This document shows positions 26,056 to 60,172 of a DNA stretch of 64,000 bases, in pieces; the stretch's first letter is position 1; each line of letters opens with the position of its first letter. The DNA is taken from the NCBI GenBank assembly GCA_016839815.1, contig JAEOTM010000069.1, forward strand, positions 1 to 64,000. Reading direction: 5' to 3'. The notes below the pieces were generated by a model that was not told the DNA's origin, did no database searches, and was given only the letters and a program-made list of their open reading frames with translations. Origin of the DNA: Candidatus Hodarchaeota archaeon. Lineage in GTDB: Archaea; Asgardarchaeota; Heimdallarchaeia; Hodarchaeales; Hodarchaeaceae. The position numbers and the translations under genes are program-made.

Positions 26056-27393
26056 ATGGTTGACCCACTTTTGATTGGAGTATCCTTCTTCTTGTTAATT
26101 GTACTATTTATCGTTATTCGTAGAACAGAACTCATTCCGTATCTTTATATCTATTTTATTGGGAAGAAAGATCTTCCTGTTAACCTTCCAAGTGATTTTG
26201 GTCTAGAGCCAATCTCAATTTCCTTTCCAGTGGGAGAAAATATGCAGAACGCTTGGTTTTTCCCTAGTAAACAGGATAATGACGCAACCATTCTGATGAT
26301 TCCCGATTGGATTACTGAACAATCGTTGGAGAATAGTTTGAAGACATCTGGAGTATTACAATTAATGGGGTTTAACGTTTTACTCCCAATTATACATCAT
26401 ATTGATGAATCAACCCGCCTTCTTCTTAAAAAGAATTTATCCCCACGATATTACACTTCAACCATTGAAAGCGCGTATGAGTACCTTATATCACGGAAAG
26501 ATCTCGATAAACGCAAAATTGCTGTGTACAGTGATTCATTTAGCACATTACTAGTAAGTAGCTTAGTAGGAGATCAGGCCATCCAGGCTGTTGTCCTTGA
26601 AAATGGACCCAGTTCACTCGGAACTTTAATTTCTCATCAATTTCCCTACACAGGATTCGGAGTTAGAGTCATTAGAAGTATACTCCGTCATCTACTAGGC
26701 GTATTTCTGTGGAAAACACGTTGGGATAGAGGTCGTTCTTTATCTATGCTCCATTCCTGCCCCACATTTCTTGTATCAGTCTTCAATCATAGAGATCAAC
26801 CAAATCGGAATATCTTCAAAAATTTCACCTCTTTATATAAACCAAAACAACTCTGGCTCGAAAATGCACTTCTTCCATCAGGGGGGATTCGTGATACATG
26901 GCCAGAGGAATATTTTTCACAGGTAAAGCATTTCTATGACCGATGGATAAACAAAGATCCCGCACCTGAATGGCATTGTGAGATGAAGGTATCAAAGAGT
27001 GGGAAAAAGGAATATACAACTTCACTTACAATTTCAGTTCTTCCTCCTCAGATGGAACAGCTTCCATTAAATATTACTTTGTCTAACCGAAAGAATCAGT
27101 TACATCAAGAACGAGTATGGTTTTTAGGAGCAGAACAGACTTATCAAATTCAAACCCCTTTTCGATCAAACTTTCACTCTCTGTTACCTTATTTTAACAT
27201 AGAAAGAACTGGAAATGAGCAGATTCCCTGGATTAAACTAGAGGCAGAGGAAGCTCTCATACATACGGTTCAAACCATTGTTTCTCTTAATCTATCAGAT
27301 TTGATTGACTATGAAGAAAGATATTTTATGACCAAAGATCAATTAGTAAAGGACATCAAGTCAGAAGAATCCGTTTCTGCTACCCTACCTTAG
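26056..27393 (+). CDS. Membrane-anchored alpha/beta-hydrolase-like protein
   Basis: 445 residues from ATG 26056 (GTGAT eight bases upstream; TTG 26047 is an alternative). One N-terminal membrane helix (LLIGVSFFLLIVLFIVI), then an alpha/beta-hydrolase-like domain: ILMIPDW in the oxyanion region and KIAVYSDSFSTLLVSSL where a Gly-x-Ser-x-Gly nucleophile elbow is expected. Here it reads Ser-Asp-Ser-Phe-Ser, so activity is doubtful. The C-terminal ~130 residues are beta-rich and unassigned. Its 3' end overlaps the convergent Cys-rich gene by 14 bases. Confidence 0.6.
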   Translation: MVDPLLIGVSFFLLIVLFIVIRRTELIPYLYIYFIGKKDLPVNLPSDFGLEPISISFPVGENMQNAWFFPSKQDNDATILMIPDWITEQSLENSLKTSGVLQLMGFNVLLPIIHHIDESTRLLLKKNLSPRYYTSTIESAYEYLISRKDLDKRKIAVYSDSFSTLLVSSLVGDQAIQAVVLENGPSSLGTLISHQFPYTGFGVRVIRSILRHLLGVFLWKTRWDRGRSLSMLHSCPTFLVSVFNHRDQPNRNIFKNFTSLYKPKQLWLENALLPSGGIRDTWPEEYFSQVKHFYDRWINKDPAPEWHCEMKVSKSGKKEYTTSLTISVLPPQMEQLPLNITLSNRKNQLHQERVWFLGAEQTYQIQTPFRSNFHSLLPYFNIERTGNEQIPWIKLEAEEALIHTVQTIVSLNLSDLIDYEERYFMTKDQLVKDIKSEESVSATLP

Positions 27394-27676
27394 CAAATTG
27401 ACAGGATTCACAAAAAGGAGAATTATGAGCAAACAATGAGCAATGAAATCTGATCTTTCTTGAATTTTTTACAGAAAAATAAAGGCATTCAATATTAAAT
27501 TTTTCCTGTTTTACTTTTTCTAGATTGCCAATCTTCCCTTCTTCAAAAAAACCGCACTGATTTGGGCACTTACTAATCCACTCATGATATTTAATACAAA
27601 AAGAAAGGGAATTTCCTGAAGTAGTCAGTAAAGCGATGCACGGCTTGAATATTGAGTTATCTATCTCTTGTCCCAC
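27380..27676 (-). CDS. Small Cys-rich protein, paralog 1
   Basis: 98 residues with eight cysteines. The order is C-x13-C-x9-C-P-x2-C-x22-C-x14-C-x9-C-x2-C. The protein at 53106-53420 has the same C-x9-CPxxC-x22-C core with identical spacing and the same ending, so the two form a family. Likely zinc- or Fe-S-binding, judged by CPNQC and CESC pairs. Soluble, no signal peptide. GTG start at 27676 with GGTGA six bases upstream. It overlaps the end of the hydrolase-like gene on the other strand. Family not recognised. Confidence 0.7.
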   Translation of the reverse strand: MGQEIDNSIFKPCIALLTTSGNSLSFCIKYHEWISKCPNQCGFFEEGKIGNLEKVKQEKFNIECLYFSVKNSRKIRFHCSLFAHNSPFCESCQFAKVG

Positions 27677-50093: not shown

Positions 50094-50170
50094 AATTCAC
50101 GATTAGGCAATATTAGACCCATTTTCGAATATTTAAGCCATTCTCGGTATCAGTAGTAGAGGTTTGGAAA

Positions 50171-51607
50171 ATGGTTACTGAGAATATAACGACCCACCTA
50201 CTTTCGGGGGAAAGACAATCAGAGATGTTTCAAAATCCGCAATCATTAGTTAATGCTACTAATGAGGAATTATTCAGTCTCGAAGCGGATTTTGTACATC
50301 GAGTACAATTAGCAGGAGCTCGAAAACGGTTCGAGTACTTTATTCCAAGAATTAAAGCTTTAAAAAAGCTGGCAGACGAACAGAATATCTCAGAGATTAC
50401 GAGTCTTAATGATCTAGCTCCTATTCTCTTTCAACACACCGTCTACAAAAGCTATCCATTAGCCTTCATTGAGAAGAAGAAGTTTGATAAGCTTACAGCT
50501 TGGTTAGATAAGCTTACTACACACGATTTGTCGACAATTGTGACGAATGAGTGTAATTCTATCGACTCTTGGTTAGAAGCAATCGAAAAGCAGTCCAATA
50601 TTCGAATTGTCCACAGTACGGGTACGAGCGGGAAGTTAAGTTTTCTTCCAAGAAGCGAGAGTGAAATGGACAATTTTAAGCAAGCGTTCTATTTGTTTAT
50701 TGAGGTCCTCACAGGTGTGAATCCCCATACTACACATATGCCTGTTTTCTTCCCAAGTTTTGCTGATGGGAGACAATTAGCCCAAAGGGTACTAAGTCGA
50801 TTTGGCCCAATGTTAGCAGGATCTGAAGGGGAATATCATACTGCAATTCCTGGTTATCTTTCCGCGGACTTCATGTCTCTTGCAGGTAGATTACAAGCAG
50901 CAAAAGCTAAAGGAGAATTAGGAAAACTCCAAATGCTTAAAGCATTGAGCTATAACAAAGGTGAGCTCATCCGATTAAAACGGAATCGTCCGAAATATAT
51001 GGCAGCTTTCTTTGATAATATGATTAGTAATTATCGTGGTCGTCAAGTTTTCATGCTTGGAACGCTCACATCAATGATTGAAGCCGCATTAGAAGGAGAA
51101 AAACAAGGATTGAGTCATGTTTTCGCCCCTAATTCCGCAATAGTAACTGGAGGGGGACTTAAAGGACAAACTGTTCCTGATGACTGGTATGAAAGAATCT
51201 GTACTTTCTATGGTGTCAAAAGTATCAGAGATGGCTATGGAATGACGGAAACAACTGGTTACATGCCTTCTTGTGAACAGAATCACTACCATATCTATCC
51301 ACATTTCATTCCGTTTGTTTTCGACTTGGTTGATGGTCAAGTATTGCCCCGAAAAGGGATTCAAACTGGACGGTTTGGTTTCTATGACCTGCTCACTGAA
51401 AGTTATTGGGGTGGGTTCCTAACAGGTGATGAAGTAACAATTCACTGGGATGAGCAATGCACATGTGGACGCACTGGTCCTTGGCTTGAAAAGAGTATCC
51501 ATCGTATTAGTGAGAAAAATGATGGGGACGACAAAATTAGCTGTGCAGGGAGTCAAGAAGCATATGACTCGTTTATCGACTATTTATTGGATATAGAGGA
51601 AGAGTAA
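50171..51607 (+). CDS. LuxE-like acyl-protein synthetase (AMP-forming)
   Basis: 478 residues. Adenylate-forming enzyme of the LuxE type, which activates a fatty acid as acyl-AMP and transfers it to the partner reductase. Visible motifs: IVHSTGTSGKLSF (P-loop-like, 147-159), VTGGGLKGQ, DGYGMTETTGYMPSC (ATP-binding A5-like) and a C-terminal TGDEVTIHWDEQCTCGRTG. Slightly longer than bacterial LuxE (~370). No luciferase luxA/luxB genes are near. Thirty bases downstream lies the LuxC-like reductase, its natural partner. Confidence 0.8.
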   Translation: MVTENITTHLLSGERQSEMFQNPQSLVNATNEELFSLEADFVHRVQLAGARKRFEYFIPRIKALKKLADEQNISEITSLNDLAPILFQHTVYKSYPLAFIEKKKFDKLTAWLDKLTTHDLSTIVTNECNSIDSWLEAIEKQSNIRIVHSTGTSGKLSFLPRSESEMDNFKQAFYLFIEVLTGVNPHTTHMPVFFPSFADGRQLAQRVLSRFGPMLAGSEGEYHTAIPGYLSADFMSLAGRLQAAKAKGELGKLQMLKALSYNKGELIRLKRNRPKYMAAFFDNMISNYRGRQVFMLGTLTSMIEAALEGEKQGLSHVFAPNSAIVTGGGLKGQTVPDDWYERICTFYGVKSIRDGYGMTETTGYMPSCEQNHYHIYPHFIPFVFDLVDGQVLPRKGIQTGRFGFYDLLTESYWGGFLTGDEVTIHWDEQCTCGRTGPWLEKSIHRISEKNDGDDKISCAGSQEAYDSFIDYLLDIEEE

Positions 51608-51637
51608 CTTCTTCCATTTCTTTTTGAGGACACTAAC

Positions 51638-53086
51638 ATGCAAACAATTCTTACAAAACCGCTTGAATCTGACATCTTTGAAATTCCAATTATCCTACGA
51701 GGAAAACTAATTCACGATTATTCTGACACTTTTGGTGGAAGGAACGGAGCAAAATTCATTACTCCAAGTGCACGGAAGTATGTAAATCAAATTGCCCTGT
51801 CTGACCCATCAAAAATGAAGGATCTATATGATCTATCCATAGAAGAGATTATCTTGTTTCTTCGCGATTTAGGGCAACGGTTAGTCTTACATGAAAATGA
51901 ACACCTTCAAGCTGCCTACAAACTCGCGTGTGAAGCCTCAGGTTTAACGCCAGAAGTTTTAAATACAACATATCGAACTTTACCGATGTTATTTCTTCCA
52001 TCCAATGTCCGAGAGATGCTTGAAAAGAGGAAAATTCGCAAATATCTGGAATCCTGGGTACCCACCACGATGGAAGATGGACGAACAATATCAATTAGAG
52101 CTTTTGGCTCTCGTACAGTTCATATTATTGCAGGTAACGTACCAACCGTTTCTGCCGCTTCACTGATTAGAGGTTGTAGTACACGTTGTGATACTATTTT
52201 CAAATTACCATCCAACGACCCACTCACAGCAACAGCATTAGTTCAAACAATGATCGATATGGAACCAAATCATCCTCTTACTAAGCATACAAGTGTCCTT
52301 TATTGGAGAGGAGGCGATACAGAATTTGAGGAGCGATTTTACCATCCCGATAATATCGATAAAATTATCGCTTGGGGAGGTTTCAACTCAATCAAACACA
52401 TTAGTCAGTATTTACAGGCTGGACTCGATCTTATCACCTTCGATCCTAAAATCAGTATCTCTATTATTGGAAACGAAGCGTTTCAGAATTTCCAAACTCT
52501 TCAGTTAGCAGCTCAGCGAGCAGCTATTGATGTTGGATCGTTTAATCAAGAGGCCTGTTTAAATTCTCGCATAATGTATGTACAATCTGGAACATCTGAT
52601 GAGGGAATTCAACGTCTGAATTCATTTGGAAAAATGTTGTACTCAGCTCTTGTTAATCTTCCTTCACATGTGTCAACCTCACCTAAAATCTTTGATAAAA
52701 CGCTCAAAGACGATATTGATGGAATACGTCTAGAAGAGGATTTTTATCGAGTATACGGGGGTAAAAATAACGAAGGTGCAGTTATTGTTTCTCAATTTGA
52801 TGAACCAGTAGACTTTTCTCACAGGTTATGCAGTAGAGTCGTTAATCTTGTTCCTATAGATAACGTTGATACTGCAATTCAGTCAGTAAACTCCTATACC
52901 CAAACGGTTGGTATTTTCCCTGAATCATTAAAACTCCAACTACGAAATACCCTACCCCTCTATGGAGTTCAACGAGTAGTTTCCTTAGGATTTGCGGCCA
53001 CAGCTAGTCTAGCAACACCTCAAGATGCGATTGAACCTGTTAGAAGGATGTGCAAATGGATCACTGATGAAAAATCCGTAACGTAA
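51638..53086 (+). CDS. LuxC-like acyl-CoA/acyl-enzyme reductase
   Basis: 482 residues, the LuxC length. Aldehyde dehydrogenase superfamily enzyme that reduces an activated acyl group to the aldehyde with NADPH. The nucleophile is Cys307 in GSFNQEACLNSR; VHIIAGNVPTVSA and IIAWGG fit the NADPH-binding region. With the LuxE-like protein it would form a fatty acid reductase. ATG 51638. Only 19 bases precede the Cys-rich protein gene, so these three genes form an operon. Confidence 0.85.
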   Translation: MQTILTKPLESDIFEIPIILRGKLIHDYSDTFGGRNGAKFITPSARKYVNQIALSDPSKMKDLYDLSIEEIILFLRDLGQRLVLHENEHLQAAYKLACEASGLTPEVLNTTYRTLPMLFLPSNVREMLEKRKIRKYLESWVPTTMEDGRTISIRAFGSRTVHIIAGNVPTVSAASLIRGCSTRCDTIFKLPSNDPLTATALVQTMIDMEPNHPLTKHTSVLYWRGGDTEFEERFYHPDNIDKIIAWGGFNSIKHISQYLQAGLDLITFDPKISISIIGNEAFQNFQTLQLAAQRAAIDVGSFNQEACLNSRIMYVQSGTSDEGIQRLNSFGKMLYSALVNLPSHVSTSPKIFDKTLKDDIDGIRLEEDFYRVYGGKNNEGAVIVSQFDEPVDFSHRLCSRVVNLVPIDNVDTAIQSVNSYTQTVGIFPESLKLQLRNTLPLYGVQRVVSLGFAATASLATPQDAIEPVRRMCKWITDEKSVT

Positions 53087-53105
53087 TAAAGTTGGAGGGA
53101 TTCAT

Positions 53106-53420
53106 GTGGATGCCTGTCAACATCAAGTTATAGATCAATCTATAGAAACAACTCTATTCCTATGTGTAGTTTATAAAGACTATTTTCAATCTTGCCCGTC
53201 TAAATGTCCTTATTACAGATCAGGTTCTCCTCTAACGTTTGCTTATCTTTATAGTAAAAATTTTGATTTTGAGTGTACATACTTTCAGAGTTTAGTGCAG
53301 TGTACAGCACACGATAGCCAGTCATTCATTTGTGAACTAACGAAGAAGCCACCTGATTGCCCTAATTGCCCATTAAAACTAGTTTCTAATTCAGGTGTCA
53401 ATTCGGGAGTTAGGTCCTAA
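53106..53420 (+). CDS. Small Cys-rich protein, paralog 2
   Basis: 104 residues, eight cysteines arranged C-x15-C-x9-C-P-x2-C-x22-C... and ending C-x8-C-x2-C, with one extra Cys in the loop. The central C-x9-CPxxC-x22-C spacing is identical to that of the protein at 27380-27676; FECTYF/IECLYF and the CxxC ending are also shared. Likely binds zinc or an Fe-S cluster. GTG start at 53106 with GGAGG seven bases upstream. It follows the LuxC-like gene by 19 bases and may be a redox or structural partner. Confidence 0.7.
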   Translation: MDACQHQVIDQSIETTLFLCVVYKDYFQSCPSKCPYYRSGSPLTFAYLYSKNFDFECTYFQSLVQCTAHDSQSFICELTKKPPDCPNCPLKLVSNSGVNSGVRS

Positions 53421-53523: not shown

Positions 53524-54159
53524 ATGGAACACAATGACGACCTTACAAAGCTTTTAGAAGATTTGGAGGCATCTAGCTCATATATACGAGCCGAAACTAT
53601 TAGAAAAATTGGGAAAATGAAAATCCCAATAACTGATATTCCAATGGAACTGCATTCGAGACTTGTCAAAGCACTTTCTGACCCAGCACCGGAAGTACGG
53701 GCGGAAGTAGTAATGACACTAGCATTTCTTGAAGGAGATATCATAAATCCCCTCCTAGAACCATTATTATCCGATCCTATTGATATCGTTCGTAGTAACA
53801 CAATTTCTGCATTGAGTTATACTCAAGCACCATTGACGGAATTAATATCAGAAAAACTCCTTAATTGCATGAATGAAAAAAGCATTCAAATCAGAGATAG
53901 ATGTGCTAGAGCATTAGGACGATTACGAGTTAGAGGAGCAGAGAAGATTTTATTAGATACTCTAGAGAATGATTCATCACCTGTAGTTAGAACTGGAGCG
54001 GCAGTAGGCCTAGGACAACTAGAATTTTTAGACTCGGAAATACTTGACAAATTGAATAGTCGGTTGGATAATGAAGACTCTGAATTAGTAAAACAGACAA
54101 TAAAAGAAGTTATTTCCATTCATTCCACGAGAAATCCTAAACCTTTAGCTGATTTTTGA
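53524..54159 (+). CDS. HEAT-repeat protein
   Basis: 211 residues of PBS-lyase-type HEAT repeats: SSYIRAETIRKIGKM, APEVRAEVVMTLAF, IDIVRSNTISALSY, IQIRDRCARALGRL and SPVVRTGAAVGLGQL, about 30-35 residues each. A protein-interaction scaffold; no enzyme domain attached. Some relatives act as lyases for bilins, but there is no indication of that here. ATG 53524, 103 bases downstream of the Cys-rich gene. Confidence 0.85.
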   Translation: MEHNDDLTKLLEDLEASSSYIRAETIRKIGKMKIPITDIPMELHSRLVKALSDPAPEVRAEVVMTLAFLEGDIINPLLEPLLSDPIDIVRSNTISALSYTQAPLTELISEKLLNCMNEKSIQIRDRCARALGRLRVRGAEKILLDTLENDSSPVVRTGAAVGLGQLEFLDSEILDKLNSRLDNEDSELVKQTIKEVISIHSTRNPKPLADF

Positions 54160-54287: not shown

Positions 54288-55322
54288 TCATTCTCTTGGT
54301 GCGTCGGTTACCCATTTCTCTGGGGAGAACCAGCCATGACTACGTTTTTCTTCAATAAGTTCATCCCGAATATCGGTAAAATAGTAAGTGGTTCCTCCAA
54401 TTGTTTTGATTATGCTTTTGACACCAGGTAATTCCGTTAATTGGGCTTGAATTTTTCCTACTTCAGTATAGGAGGAACAATAGAAGGATAAAAAGAGAAC
54501 AGGCCTATCAGCGGATCGCCATGAACTAAGTGGCCAGAAATTAGGTATGGTATTAATTTCTTGCATGATTTCCTGTTGAATTAAGTAATTTAAAATAGTG
54601 AATTCGCACTGAAACATTGTCAAAGTTTCTTTAGGTGATTTCACAGGATTTATCTGAATGGTTTCCTGAATCAGATGATGATGACGGAGATAATCTAGTC
54701 TCTCGTTGATAACCTCAACCTCAATTTCTATACGTTTGGTAAGCTCTTGTAGGGAAAGTCGGCCTTGTTCTCTTAGATGAGCTAATATAAGCCAATCTTC
54801 CCTCTCAAGTGATACTAGATCTTGAGTCGGATTAGCACTACCTGTATTAACAAGTGGAGTAACAGGATAAAGATGTAGTTCCTCAAAAGCACCATGAAAT
54901 TGCTGAAAATGTTCTGCTAGTTCGATAAAATCTTTCTTATTACTGTATCTTGCATAAGCAAATCCTTCATGAGCAGTTCCTATTGAAATTGATTCAATTG
55001 TAGAATGTATCCCTAGTAATGTTAAGCGATTAAGCTCTAAGGGAGATAGAGATCGGAAAATGATTATTGCATTATGTAGATTGAGGAGTAAAGGATTTAG
55101 AACTACAGTAAACTTTAGAATGGTGTGATTATTAACCAACCGTTGAATTCGTATACCTACGTCTTCAGGAGATAAATTCAAGTTAGAGGCAAGCTGGGAA
55201 AATGAAATACGACAGGATTGTGCTAAACCAAAGAGAATACTTTTATCAAAGACATCCATAATATAAACTTGCCCTGTCCTCTTTTTAACGTCGTTTCTGT
55301 CGTTTTCTGTTCGATATTTCAA
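54288..55322 (-). CDS. Lrp/AsnC-type double winged-helix regulator
   Basis: 344 residues. Two winged-helix units: the first near residues 25-70 (LAQSCRISFSQLASNLNLS), the second near 175-220 (AHLREQGRLSLQELTKRIEI), each with a following alpha/beta segment like the Lrp ligand-binding (RAM) domain. A duplicated Lrp-like regulator that probably senses a small molecule and controls local genes. The start is TTG 55322 or ATG 55259 (MDVFDKS). It follows thiolase by 13 bases, so it is in the beta-oxidation operon and may regulate it. Confidence 0.75.
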   Translation of the reverse strand: MKYRTENDRNDVKKRTGQVYIMDVFDKSILFGLAQSCRISFSQLASNLNLSPEDVGIRIQRLVNNHTILKFTVVLNPLLLNLHNAIIIFRSLSPLELNRLTLLGIHSTIESISIGTAHEGFAYARYSNKKDFIELAEHFQQFHGAFEELHLYPVTPLVNTGSANPTQDLVSLEREDWLILAHLREQGRLSLQELTKRIEIEVEVINERLDYLRHHHLIQETIQINPVKSPKETLTMFQCEFTILNYLIQQEIMQEINTIPNFWPLSSWRSADRPVLFLSFYCSSYTEVGKIQAQLTELPGVKSIIKTIGGTTYYFTDIRDELIEEKRSHGWFSPEKWVTDAPRE

Positions 55323-55335
55323 TTTTACCTTTGGA

Positions 55336-56640
55336 TTAAAAATCTAAATTCTCAATAATTGTAGCTAAACCCTGTCCTCCTCCCACACATGCGTTCGCAA
55401 CCCCATATTTTCCATTCTTATCCTTCAATATACGAGCTAAAGTTCCTGTGAGACGAATCATTGTTGCTCCTAATGGATGACCGATCGCTGTTGATCCTCC
55501 CTTAATATTAACTTTGTCTTCAGGAATATTAAACTTATCCATACAATTCAAGGCTACAATGCAAAACGCTTCATTAATTTCCCAGAAATCAATATCTTCA
55601 GCTGTTAGGTTAGCATGTTCTAGTGCTTTTTGTGTAGCGGGAACAGGTCCCCTTCCCATAACCCTTGGATCAACTCCTGCCCATCCAATTGAGATTATAC
55701 GTGCCATAGCCTCTAAATTTCTTAATTTTGCTTCTTCAGCTTCCATAAGGAGAGCTGTTGTGGCACCTGCATTCAATGGAGATGAATTCCCTGCAGTAAT
55801 AACTCCTTCTCCTGTTCCTTCACGTTCAATATATCCTTCTTTTCCTCCATTTTTATCAAGATAAAATGGAACAGATATTCTACGTAATCCAGCCACTCCT
55901 TCTAATGTAGATTTTCTTGCGGTCATATCTTTTTCTACTAGCATTGGTATATCAGGATTTCCTGCAACGTGCCCTTCTATTGGTATAATTTCTCCTCCGT
56001 TCACTCCATTGGTGAACCATTTCTCCTCTTGACTCTTAATAGTTAAGTTGTGGGACCTTACCCCAAATTTATCTAAATCCTCTTTAGTGAATTTTGGTAT
56101 CTCTTCTTCATATAACCGTTGCGCAGTCTGCAACATATTCATTGAAGTTTCCATATCATATTCAGGGTGATAAAATAAGCTGTTTTCATCCTTATATCTT
56201 TCTATCGCAGGATCTATACCCACTCTTCTTACTCTTGTCATATGTTCGAAGCCTGTAGCTAATGCACACTTAGTATACCCAGTCATTATTTCCATCGCCA
56301 ACATATGAATTCCTGCTCCTGCAGAGGAACATTGTTTATCGATAAAAAACGAGGAAACTTTTTCTGGAAAACCTGCTAAGAAAAGGGGTATCTTCCCACC
56401 ATAAGTCCAATTCTCAAGCACTCCAGAAGCAACACCTACGGAAACCTCTTCAATGTCATGCCTAGAGATCTCCTTATCCGCCAATTTACCATCAAAAAAT
56501 TTTATCAGTAAACGGGCTAGTAACTCATCTCCACGAATTCCCCCAAAGACATCTCGCTCGGGTTGATTTGGTCTCGAACGTGAAAAAGCCGTACGAGCAT
56601 AATCAACCAGCCATACTTCCTTAATTCCCAAATTCATCAT
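55336..56640 (-). CDS. Thiolase (acetyl-CoA C-acyltransferase)
   Basis: 434 residues, slightly longer than usual (~395). Cleaves 3-ketoacyl-CoA to acetyl-CoA and a shortened acyl-CoA, or condenses two acetyl-CoA. Active site: nucleophilic Cys in KQCSSAGAG, NEAFCIVAL, HPLGATM with the His, and the second Cys in ACVGGGQG. ATG start near 56640 overlaps the enoyl-CoA hydratase stop, so the two are translationally coupled. Confidence 0.93.
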   Translation of the reverse strand: MMNLGIKEVWLVDYARTAFSRSRPNQPERDVFGGIRGDELLARLLIKFFDGKLADKEISRHDIEEVSVGVASGVLENWTYGGKIPLFLAGFPEKVSSFFIDKQCSSAGAGIHMLAMEIMTGYTKCALATGFEHMTRVRRVGIDPAIERYKDENSLFYHPEYDMETSMNMLQTAQRLYEEEIPKFTKEDLDKFGVRSHNLTIKSQEEKWFTNGVNGGEIIPIEGHVAGNPDIPMLVEKDMTARKSTLEGVAGLRRISVPFYLDKNGGKEGYIEREGTGEGVITAGNSSPLNAGATTALLMEAEEAKLRNLEAMARIISIGWAGVDPRVMGRGPVPATQKALEHANLTAEDIDFWEINEAFCIVALNCMDKFNIPEDKVNIKGGSTAIGHPLGATMIRLTGTLARILKDKNGKYGVANACVGGGQGLATIIENLDF

Positions 56641-57464
56641 TTCCCTTGAAACTCGGGTTTTCTTTTCTCGAGGAATGCCGAAATACCTTCTGCTACATCC
56701 TTACTTTGTGAATTAATTGCGTATCCCATTTGCTCAAATTGTAATCCTATATTAAGTGGTGCTTGAGTTCCGTAGTCAATACTTTTCTTAATAAGGAATA
56801 AGCTGTTGGTAGCAGCATTTCCTAACCATGAAGCCTTTTCGTGAATAAACTCTTCAAATTTCTCATCATCTACTATGTATGAAAGAACGCCCCACTCAAA
56901 CATTGTCTCTGCAGATAAAAGCTCTCCAAAAAACATCATTCTCTTAGCCCTCATCTTGCCAAGGTTTTTTATTAACCGTTGAGTCCCTCCATTTGCGGGA
57001 AAAATTCCTCGTTGGACTTCAGGAAGCCCAAAGATTGAGCGTTTTGAAGCAATTGAAATATCACAAGCTAAGACTAGTTCAAAGCCCCCACCTAATGCAT
57101 AACCATCAATTGCCGCAATAAGTGGTTTATGAAACTCCTCAATCAAATCATAATATTTATGTCTTCTATACATCGCATGACTTTGATGTCTCAGATTATT
57201 TGGATCAAGATCAGCACTCCCTCTATCCGAGAGATCGGCACCAGCAGAAAAAGCAGGTTTCTTTGAATACTCTTTCGTCCCTCTTAAGACAACGCAACGA
57301 ATGCTTGGATCAACTTCAATAGATTCTAACGCTTCAGATATCTCTTTTAATGTTTGGACCTGAAGCGCATTCAACTTATCAGGACGATTGATTGATATGA
57401 CTGCATAGTGACCTTCTTCATTATGCTCAATTCTCACATGTTCATATTTACTCTCTTCAGTCAT
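56637..57464 (-). CDS. Enoyl-CoA hydratase
   Basis: 275 residues, crotonase fold. Hydrates trans-2-enoyl-CoA to 3-hydroxyacyl-CoA. Catalytic Glu residues sit in LGGGFELVLACD and FGLPEVQRG; PANGGTQRL matches the family's PGxGGTQRL with Asn for Gly. KKPAFSAGADLSDRG forms the CoA-binding region. ATG 57464. Upstream of thiolase on the same strand. Confidence 0.93.
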   Translation of the reverse strand: MTEESKYEHVRIEHNEEGHYAVISINRPDKLNALQVQTLKEISEALESIEVDPSIRCVVLRGTKEYSKKPAFSAGADLSDRGSADLDPNNLRHQSHAMYRRHKYYDLIEEFHKPLIAAIDGYALGGGFELVLACDISIASKRSIFGLPEVQRGIFPANGGTQRLIKNLGKMRAKRMMFFGELLSAETMFEWGVLSYIVDDEKFEEFIHEKASWLGNAATNSLFLIKKSIDYGTQAPLNIGLQFEQMGYAINSQSKDVAEGISAFLEKRKPEFQGK

Positions 57465-57552
57465 TATTCAAACCTCTTCCACGTTGAATTTCTATAAAGG
57501 TTCAAATATTTTATTAGAGAAAGAAGACTTGGAAGAGAGAATCAAACTAAAT

Positions 57553-58737
57553 CTATTCGTTTCCTATCCTTTTCAAAAGAGAATTATCTCGAATCCATTC
57601 ATGGGCACGAAATATCTCTTTGTCGTATTTAACAGATAGATTATCAAGGAATGAGGTTAAATCAGATAGGTTCATTTGTTTTACCAATTCAAAAGGTCCT
57701 GATGGATTATGATAAAACTTTGTCATGCCAATGTCAATATCCTGAATTGTCGCCACCTCTTCTTCGAAAACTTTGACCGCTTCATTGATCTGAACACGCA
57801 TCAGATTCATTATATCATAATTCGCAGGATATGACAAATCGATTATTGGTCTCTTACCTCCTGAACGCCATTTATAGATACCCTCTCCAGTTTTCCTACC
57901 CAACTTATTCTCTTGTACCAACCTTGACACAGTCTTTGTGGGGGAATAATCAGGAGAAAGATTATCTGCTAAAGATTTAGAACTATCATATACAACATCA
58001 AGCCCAATATAATCAAGAAGTTCATAAGGACCCATAACCATCTTTTTGTTTAATGCTACAGCATCGATACTTTCCGGAGTATATTCATTGTTGTCAAGCA
58101 TTAATTGAACCAAAAGCATTGAAGGTGCCATAATTCGATTACAAATAAATCCAGGACTATCTTTGGAAATTATTGGTATTCTATTTCCTGCTTTCACAAA
58201 ATCAAGAGCACGCAGAACCGTCCTTTCAGATGTTTTTTCCCCTCGAATTATTTCAACAACTTCAGCAAGTACGGGTGGTGTAGAGAAATGTACTCCAACA
58301 ACTAATTCTGGTCGATTGGTAAAATTAGCAATATGTGTAATACTCAATGTTGAAGTATTTGATGCTAAGAGAGCATTTCTTGGAGAAAGAATATCTAACT
58401 TCTTAAAAACCTTCTTTTTCAGTTTTATTTGCTCAGGAATGGCTTCAATGCAAAAATCTGCATCTTTAACAGATTCTTCTAGACTTGTAGAAGTTTTAAG
58501 ATTATTGAGAAGTTGTTTATACATTCCTTCAGTTATTACTGCCTTTTCTACAAATTTCCTTAAAGAAGAGTCAATTAACGTCCGTCCCTTACAAACTGCA
58601 GACTCCTCAATATCAACAAGAGAAACCTCGTAACCAGATAAAAGAGCTACCTCTGCAATTCCATGTCCCATCAAACCTGCCCCTATAACCGACACTCGTT
58701 TAATATTATTAGCATCGAAATTAGAATCTTCTTCCAT
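57553..58737 (-). CDS. 3-hydroxyacyl-CoA dehydrogenase, copy 1
   Basis: 394 residues. NAD-dependent oxidation of 3-hydroxyacyl-CoA. N-terminal Rossmann domain with VIGAGLMGHGIAE; catalytic His in GVHFSTPPVLAEVVEI, which departs from the usual HFFNPVP; then two helical C-terminal HAD domains, the second less conserved. The 394 residues agree with the duplicated C-domain form. ATG 58737. 88 bases upstream of the enoyl-CoA hydratase. Confidence 0.9.
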   Translation of the reverse strand: MEEDSNFDANNIKRVSVIGAGLMGHGIAEVALLSGYEVSLVDIEESAVCKGRTLIDSSLRKFVEKAVITEGMYKQLLNNLKTSTSLEESVKDADFCIEAIPEQIKLKKKVFKKLDILSPRNALLASNTSTLSITHIANFTNRPELVVGVHFSTPPVLAEVVEIIRGEKTSERTVLRALDFVKAGNRIPIISKDSPGFICNRIMAPSMLLVQLMLDNNEYTPESIDAVALNKKMVMGPYELLDYIGLDVVYDSSKSLADNLSPDYSPTKTVSRLVQENKLGRKTGEGIYKWRSGGKRPIIDLSYPANYDIMNLMRVQINEAVKVFEEEVATIQDIDIGMTKFYHNPSGPFELVKQMNLSDLTSFLDNLSVKYDKEIFRAHEWIRDNSLLKRIGNE

Positions 58738-58972
58738 TATGAATTATCAGCCCTTTTCTTGATGTATTCTTCTCCTAACTCATATTACTATTTATCATAG
58801 GAGGATATTTGAGAAGGATTTACACGATACCGAAGCAATTTCCATACTTTACATAGAAAGATATGCAAAATAAGTACTTGAAGCAAGTAGTAGTAAACGG
58901 AAATATTAAGATACCGCAAAAATAGTGCAAGGAAAAGTAAGAAATCGGATTTGTTAATGAGTTGAAAAAAGA

Positions 58973-60172
58973 ATGATCGATTTAAAGCTATCTGAAGAGC
59001 AGATTATGTTACGTGACAGTGTTAGAGATTATGTTGAGCGAGATGTAGCTCCAAAGATTGATGAGTATGACAAAGCCCAAAAAAGCCTCTATCCCGAAGT
59101 CCTACCCAAGATGGGAGAGTTGGGTATACTTGGGGTTTGCATACCAGAAAAGTACGGTGGTGCGGGTTTTGATTATATTTCACTTGCCCTCGTGTGTGAA
59201 GAGTTAGAGCGAGTCGATACTTCCTTGAGAGTCATTATGTCAGTCCATACGGCTTTAAGTAGTTGTACATTATGGAGGTGGGCATCAAGAGATCAGAAAG
59301 AGAAATATTTAGCTCCACAGGCTCAAGGAAAGAAAATTGGAGCATTTGGATTAACAGAACCGGGGTGTGGATCCGATGTTGCTAATATTCAAACACGAGC
59401 TGTTCGTGAAGGAGATGAATACGTCTTAAATGGAACAAAACAGTGGATCAGTCTTGCAGATGTGGCAGATAGTTTTCTTATTTTCGCACGAGTGGGAAAA
59501 GAAAAGGGGGTTAAAGGAATTGCTAGTTTTATAGTAGATAAAGAATGTCCAGGACTTACGACTACTTCTTTCCATAATAAATTAGGAGTAAGAGCAGGTG
59601 ATACAGGAGAAGTCAGTTTACAGAATGTTAGAATTCCAGCGGAGAAGTTACTTGGGAAAGAAACAGAGGGATTTAAGATTGCAATGACTGCGTTAGATAA
59701 CGGTCGTTATACAGTCGCAGCAGGTGCTCTGGGGTCTATTAGAGCTAGCCTCGAAGCATCAATAAAATATTCTCATGAAAGGAAAGCTTTTGGTCAAGAA
59801 ATCGGAAAATTCCAATTGATCCAAGAGCATCTTGCATATATGCAAGCGGGTTACGATCAATCACAACTTCTTGTATATAAAGCAGGATGGTTAAAAAATC
59901 AAGGAATCGATAATACACGAGAAACAGGTATGGCAAAGTGGCAAGCTACAAATTACGCCTCTGATGCTGCCAATAGAGCAATCCAAATCCATGGAGCAAT
60001 GGGATTCAGTGGTGATTTTCCTTTAGAACGTTATTGGAGAAACGCACGAGCAAATACTATCCTAGAGGGAACCAATGAAATTCAGAAACTCATACAGGGG
60101 TCTTTTATTCTAGGATATCGGAGAAAACCAGACCTTAGGTGCAGTCTACCTTCTTACAAACCTGGAGAATAA
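58973..60172 (+). CDS. Acyl-CoA dehydrogenase
   Basis: 399 residues. FAD enzyme for the first oxidation of acyl-CoA. Landmarks: GAFGLTEPGCGSDVANI, NGTKQWIS, HERKAFGQEIGKFQLIQ, AIQIHGAMGFSG and ILEGTNEIQKLI with the catalytic Glu. More like the glutaryl/short-branched-chain group than the one at 15178, though substrate is not certain. Only this gene of the cluster is on the plus strand; 235 bases separate it from the divergent 3-hydroxyacyl-CoA dehydrogenase, where promoters must lie. Confidence 0.92.
   Translation: MIDLKLSEEQIMLRDSVRDYVERDVAPKIDEYDKAQKSLYPEVLPKMGELGILGVCIPEKYGGAGFDYISLALVCEELERVDTSLRVIMSVHTALSSCTLWRWASRDQKEKYLAPQAQGKKIGAFGLTEPGCGSDVANIQTRAVREGDEYVLNGTKQWISLADVADSFLIFARVGKEKGVKGIASFIVDKECPGLTTTSFHNKLGVRAGDTGEVSLQNVRIPAEKLLGKETEGFKIAMTALDNGRYTVAAGALGSIRASLEASIKYSHERKAFGQEIGKFQLIQEHLAYMQAGYDQSQLLVYKAGWLKNQGIDNTRETGMAKWQATNYASDAANRAIQIHGAMGFSGDFPLERYWRNARANTILEGTNEIQKLIQGSFILGYRRKPDLRCSLPSYKPGE

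Follow-up and report, generated by a model that had tools for sequence, protein, structure and literature searches.

The window, the whole stretch of 64,000 nt analysed here, lies on contig 9 of a MAG of 4.24 Mb (206 contigs, 89.5% complete, 7.8% contaminated). Its host belongs to the Hodarchaeales within the Asgard archaea; a preliminary description of the DNA had rightly presumed an archaeon. Close relatives of the host are Candidatus Hodarchaeota, including Candidatus Hodarchaeum mangrovi. Three co-directional genes on the plus strand encode a LuxE-like protein, a LuxC-type acyl reductase and a Cys-rich protein, in this order and with gaps of 30 nt and 19 nt; the coordinates, strand and spacings first given for this trio are all exact. 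The features of the locus, together with a related gene elsewhere in the window, are the following:

27380-27676, minus strand: paralogue of the Cys-rich protein, 98 aa, with synteny in several genomes of the genus
50127..50136, plus strand: candidate TATA box of the operon, the conserved A/T-rich element GAATATTTAA, identical in the aligned upstream regions of five genus genomes
50158..50163, plus strand: AGAGGT, candidate ribosome-binding site of LuxE, conserved in the five-genome upstream alignment
50171..51607, plus strand: LuxE-like acyl-protein synthetase, 478 aa, ANL/PaaK fold lacking the usual C-terminal domain
50612..50635, plus strand: ATP phosphate-binding motif HSTGTSGK of LuxE (codons H148-K155), a motif of adenylate-forming enzymes
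51542..51544, plus strand: codon of LuxE Cys458, candidate acyl-transfer Cys (KISCAGSQEAY)
51638..53086, plus strand: LuxC-type acyl reductase, 482 aa (PF05893, PDB 7xc6, hhalign)
52556..52558, plus strand: codon of LuxC Cys307, candidate nucleophile (FNQEACLNS)
53106..53420, plus strand: Cys-rich protein with GTG start, 104 aa, 9 Cys, member of a genus-specific 8-Cys family
53524..54159, plus strand: HEAT-repeat protein (PF13646, 78.7 bits), syntenic neighbour in seven genus loci

Each of the three genes is preceded by a plausible ribosome-binding site, and the GAATATTTAA element, about 35 nt 5' of the LuxE start, would by its sequence act as a TATA box. The HEAT-repeat gene is set off from the Cys-rich gene by a 103-nt gap and is listed as a syntenic neighbour only. 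The operon is not a contamination artefact of the MAG: synteny is found in ten further loci of the genus, the neighbours are conserved across the genus, and the gene order is matched in a 4.9 Mb single-contig genome.

LuxC is present in 10 of the 12 genomes of the Hodarchaeum genus, and the two genomes without it are only about 70% complete. Most loci of the genus share the order helicase, LuxE, LuxC, Cys-rich protein, HEAT-repeat protein and Lrp-like regulator. LuxE directly adjoins LuxC in 10 of 11 loci, and the two genes are split in G007 by 2.8 kb containing a BPL_N/ThuA-like gene (L023:7562-13594). Where dS is unsaturated, dN/dS is 0.03-0.07 for both LuxE and LuxC, indicating strong purifying selection. 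Because the order recurs across the genus and both enzymes are under such selection, the three-gene operon is far beyond chance. Conservation of gene order had been proposed as a check on the preliminary description, and the LuxE-LuxC pairing is indeed kept both in the genus and in bacteria. One genome, G011, contains a second intact LuxE-LuxC-Cys-rich locus in other surroundings (L028, G011:C234) besides the standard one. Remnants of second LuxC copies were detected in two further genomes (L029, G005:C1:3209901-3210498; L030, G002:C57:2481-2711), one of them interrupted by a stop and by a frame break, and such second copies seem to decay.

At the level of sequence, membership of the reductase in the LuxC family is secure. 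It matches PF05893 with 159.9 bits (E 1.1e-46, positions 3-401 of 401, cut-off 21), the LuxC chain of PDB 7xc6 with an E-value of 4e-33, and Photorhabdus LuxC with 100% probability in hhalign. It reaches only 158 of the 750 bits of the NCBIfam LuxC equivalog, and is therefore not an ortholog of lux LuxC. Cys307, which had been named as catalytic, stands at the nucleophile position of LuxC within a Q-x-A-C motif and is invariant in 51 of 51 relatives; its context FNQEAC aligns with YDQRAC of Photorhabdus LuxC, and the acylation site of lux LuxC is Cys286, the Cys within YDQQACFSTQ (PMC8301110).

The identity of the upstream protein is less direct. It scores 18.9 bits against PF04443, under the curated cut-off of 24.9 bits and close to a rival AMP-binding match of 17 bits, and is therefore termed LuxE-like and kept outside Pfam LuxE; the same profile matches 15 of 59 relatives at E<=0.01 (best 2e-7). 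A PDB search with the single sequence gave no match, and a profile built from the 59 relatives found the LuxE chain 7xc6_E as its best PDB match (E 1e-7), followed by PaaK ligases. Alignment with Photorhabdus LuxE by hhalign has 95% probability over the core, with the C-terminal Cys lying outside the aligned part. The ATP motif is strongly conserved (G151 and G154 in 59/59, T152 in 56/59 sequences), as are the YGMTE and TGD motifs. An AlphaFold2 model (pLDDT 90, with a C-terminal arm of low confidence) has a PaaK-like ANL fold (TM about 0.5), and the model and the alignment ends agree that the usual large ANL C-terminal domain is missing. The chain stops 58 residues past TGD, compared with about 39 in LuxE, and PaaK chains extend far longer by their alignment ends. 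Cys458 is present in all 58 relatives that have the region, and the C-terminus containing it (KISCAGSQEAY) resembles that of Photorhabdus LuxE (KGCALSLTEAF). Cys458 is thus a candidate for the acyl-transfer Cys, matched to the known LuxE acyl site, Cys364 (PMC8301110), by position and motif rather than by a continuous profile alignment.

In an alternative assignment, the LuxE-like protein would be a CoA ligase of the PaaK type, and its product, free acyl-CoA, would be reduced by a CoA-dependent LuxC. PaaK-type phenylacetate-CoA ligases share the ANL N-terminal fold and rank first in a fold search with the model, in which 7xc6 LuxE was not among the matches listed, and conserved residues C368, H374, C430 and C432 are reminiscent of the CxCG region of PaaK-type enzymes. 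However, these ligases keep the C-terminal domain and release free acyl-CoA, and CoA ligases use this domain for thioester formation. Its loss here, together with a fully conserved Cys at the LuxE acyl-Cys position, makes the CoA-ligase assignment improbable. The LuxE call, weak by single sequence, stands after the profile, fold, domain-layout and Cys458 tests: what the preliminary description claimed is upheld by the best profile match and by Cys458, but not by the Pfam score, and the structure search, named beforehand as a way to reveal another family, does rank PaaK-type ligases first while the missing domain and Cys458 are LuxE-like.

The pair thus probably constitutes a two-enzyme, ATP- and NAD(P)H-dependent carboxylic-acid reductase working like LuxE/LuxC and standing outside the lux system, a reading that follows from the LuxC membership and nucleophile, the evidence for LuxE, the pairing, the selection on both genes and the alcohol dehydrogenase, SDR, aldo/keto reductase and P450 genes near the bacterial relatives. 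This probability applies to the reaction type; confidence in any single substrate is low. LuxE would adenylate a carboxylic acid with ATP and then transfer the acyl moiety to Cys458 of the same protein, carried on a short mobile C-terminal arm, from where it would be handed over to Cys307 of LuxC. LuxC would then reduce it with NAD(P)H and release an aldehyde. The aldehyde would be consumed by something other than a luciferase, and would probably be reduced to an alcohol or fed into another pathway. A literature search found no member of this LuxE-LuxC subfamily with measured activity.

The lux LuxC/LuxE enzyme feeds bacterial light production. The Hodarchaeal pair resembles this fatty acid reductase (PDB 7xc6; PF05893, PF04443) in the LuxC fold and nucleophile motif, the LuxE core, the C-terminal Cys, the missing large ANL C-terminal domain and the location of both genes in one operon. 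It differs in that LuxE is upstream of LuxC, an extra Cys-rich gene is present, and LuxD and luciferase are missing beside the pair, both in the window and in the genus loci. In addition, lux LuxE has about 370 aa, whereas the Hodarchaeal protein, with 478 aa, is longer in its N-terminal region and has Cys/His positions like those of PaaK. The LuxD search gave no matches, and its control was equally silent everywhere. Bioluminescence was rejected: as the preliminary description had stated, the operon contains no luciferase, nor do the genus loci, and the best matches of the five luciferase-superfamily proteins encoded elsewhere in the genome are F420-dependent LLM families. The pair is a little-studied cousin of the light-feeding enzyme and would serve another purpose here. 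Lux-type acyl reduction outside light production is also represented by luxE/luxC in the flagellin glycosylation islands of Aeromonas (PMC7874193) and by mel2 of Mycobacterium marinum (PMC1793995); both differ from the Hodarchaeal operon in gene company and role, and mel2 is without a clear LuxE.

The genus profile was run against 84,980 species genomes by exact peptide patterns, a method that reports near relatives only. It returned 74 loci, of which 10 are Hodarchaeal and 64 are bacterial; no archaeon besides the Hodarchaeal ones was among them. The bacterial hosts include Sphingomonadaceae, Burkholderiaceae, Halieaceae, Sterolibacterium, Thauera and mycobacteria. The pair is conserved in nearly 60 bacterial loci, and in nearly all complete ones LuxE adjoins LuxC, in either order. 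Annotation is available for three plasmids, and there the LuxE member is labelled 'hypothetical protein'. These bacterial pairs, exemplified by WP_014941048/WP_014941047 of Mycobacterium avium plasmid pP7a, belong to the same subfamily and show the same pairing, with identities to the Hodarchaeal proteins of about 34-41% for LuxE and 44-55% for LuxC; they differ in their bacterial hosts, their varied neighbours and the lack of the Cys-rich gene. On pP7a, an F420-dependent luciferase-superfamily gene is located directly 5' of the pair (L138:11382-15461). In five sphingomonad-type loci (L060, L069, L070, L074 and L097), two differing LuxE-LuxC pairs lie on opposite strands, separated by an aldo/keto reductase gene. 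Many other Asgard genomes encode LuxE-LuxC pairs of two or more other subfamilies (L109-L127), some with a LuxC of 555-590 aa. They share the location of LuxE directly upstream of LuxC, but occupy separate branches of the LuxC tree and are not the source of this operon. Literature on archaeal or Asgard LuxC-LuxE was also searched and held nothing on this subfamily.

The ten Hodarchaeal LuxC sequences group as one clade (100/100) in the tree of this protein, nested among bacterial sequences, while those of other Asgard archaea lie apart, grouped with lux LuxC. The LuxE tree also contains a single Hodarchaeal clade. Descent from a common Asgard LuxC is unsupported by the LuxC tree, in which branches are long. 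As the Hodarchaeal clade is monophyletic, nested among bacteria and separate from the other Asgard pairs, a single transfer of the LuxE-LuxC pair from bacteria to the ancestor of the Hodarchaeum genus is likely; the opposite direction is less likely, given the breadth of the bacterial distribution. The branch uniting the Hodarchaeal with some bacterial sequences is only moderately supported (86/84), so no particular bacterial donor is assigned. The genus ancestor would thus have gained the pair, most simply once, and purifying selection would have kept it since. The case documents the likely transfer of a complete two-enzyme module from a bacterium to an Asgard archaeon, in an order often placed close to eukaryotes.

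The preliminary description proposed that the pair makes fatty aldehydes or alcohols. In the window, a double-HTH Lrp-like regulator is followed by genes for thiolase, enoyl-CoA hydratase, 3-hydroxyacyl-CoA dehydrogenase and acyl-CoA dehydrogenase (54288-60172), a β-oxidation cluster whose enzyme genes lie 2-7 kb downstream. One sub-case of the carboxylate-reductase reading therefore has long-chain fatty acids reduced to fatty aldehydes or alcohols in connection with this cluster. The homology with the lux fatty acid reductase is consistent with it, as are the β-oxidation genes and a Caballeronia locus with an alcohol dehydrogenase directly beside the pair and, nearby, a wax ester synthase. 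However, the cluster is not beside the operon in the sister genus loci compared; the close relative G010 has metallo-β-lactamase and transporter genes in its place. A functional tie to β-oxidation was therefore rejected, the cluster says nothing firm on function, and many bacterial relatives lie beside P450, flavin monooxygenase, amidohydrolase and efflux genes. Fatty acid reduction in this narrow sense is possible but somewhat unlikely.

The other sub-case assumes aromatic, terpenoid or steroid-type acids, with the pair detoxifying or using plant- or sediment-derived acids. It draws on the bacterial hosts listed above and on the genes around their pairs, which encode SDR, AraC/TetR regulators, MFS/efflux proteins, FAD and flavin oxidoreductases, P450, amidohydrolases, aldo/keto reductase, ThDP enzymes, alcohol dehydrogenase, FMO, members of the old-yellow-enzyme family and TonB receptors; a type I PKS is found near the pair of a Pseudonocardia locus. 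Conversely, none of these bacterial clusters was matched to a known pathway, and the Hodarchaeal loci contain none of these partner genes. Such acids are a serious possibility that stops somewhat short of probable, and at least as likely as fatty acids. Of the earlier proposal, the LuxE/LuxC-type enzymes in one operon thus stand, whereas the fatty substrate is one option among several, the nearest relatives lying in bacterial catabolic or secondary-metabolic loci. Its remark that such genes are unexpected in an archaeon was overstated, given the β-oxidation cluster in the window and the LuxE-LuxC pairs of many Asgard genomes. Asgard genomes have also been described as capable of fatty acid use (PMC8163825).

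More tentatively, and at rather low confidence, the pair may represent a distinct class of two-component carboxylic-acid reductase, in which a PaaK-like LuxE with a tethered acyl-Cys works with LuxC, and which spread over catabolic bacteria, was captured by Hodarchaeum, takes isoprenoid, aromatic or steroid-like acids instead of fatty ones and gained a lineage-specific Cys-rich partner. If right, many bacterial gene pairs annotated as 'hypothetical protein' and 'acyl-CoA reductase' would make up a system for carboxylate reduction that parallels the CAR enzymes, and such LuxE-LuxC systems could be useful in biocatalysis.

The Cys-rich protein had been suggested to belong to the complex. It has no match in Pfam or PDB, its AlphaFold2 model has a pLDDT of 39, and its family is characterised by eight invariant or near-invariant Cys residues. 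An obligate role in the complex, as a third subunit or an electron carrier, would fit the good ribosome-binding site of the gene and its position: it follows LuxC by 5-61 nt in all but one of the 11 intact genus loci, and the second locus of G011 is among those that have it. However, the gene is absent from every bacterial LuxE-LuxC pair found and from the G003 locus, and evolves faster than LuxE and LuxC (dN/dS 0.1-0.24). The family occurs in 12 of 226 genomes of the phylum, comprising all 12 of this genus and none of the 214 others searched, and nearly every genus genome also contains unlinked paralogues, such as the one at 27380-27676 of the window. An obligate role is thus rather unlikely, and membership in the complex is weakly supported. 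Since the family is confined to the genus and has unlinked copies, the protein is probably a lineage-specific accessory, stabilised by metal or disulphides and not catalytic, in preference to a core subunit. One of the paralogues has a zinc-ribbon-like tail, a match below the cut-off.
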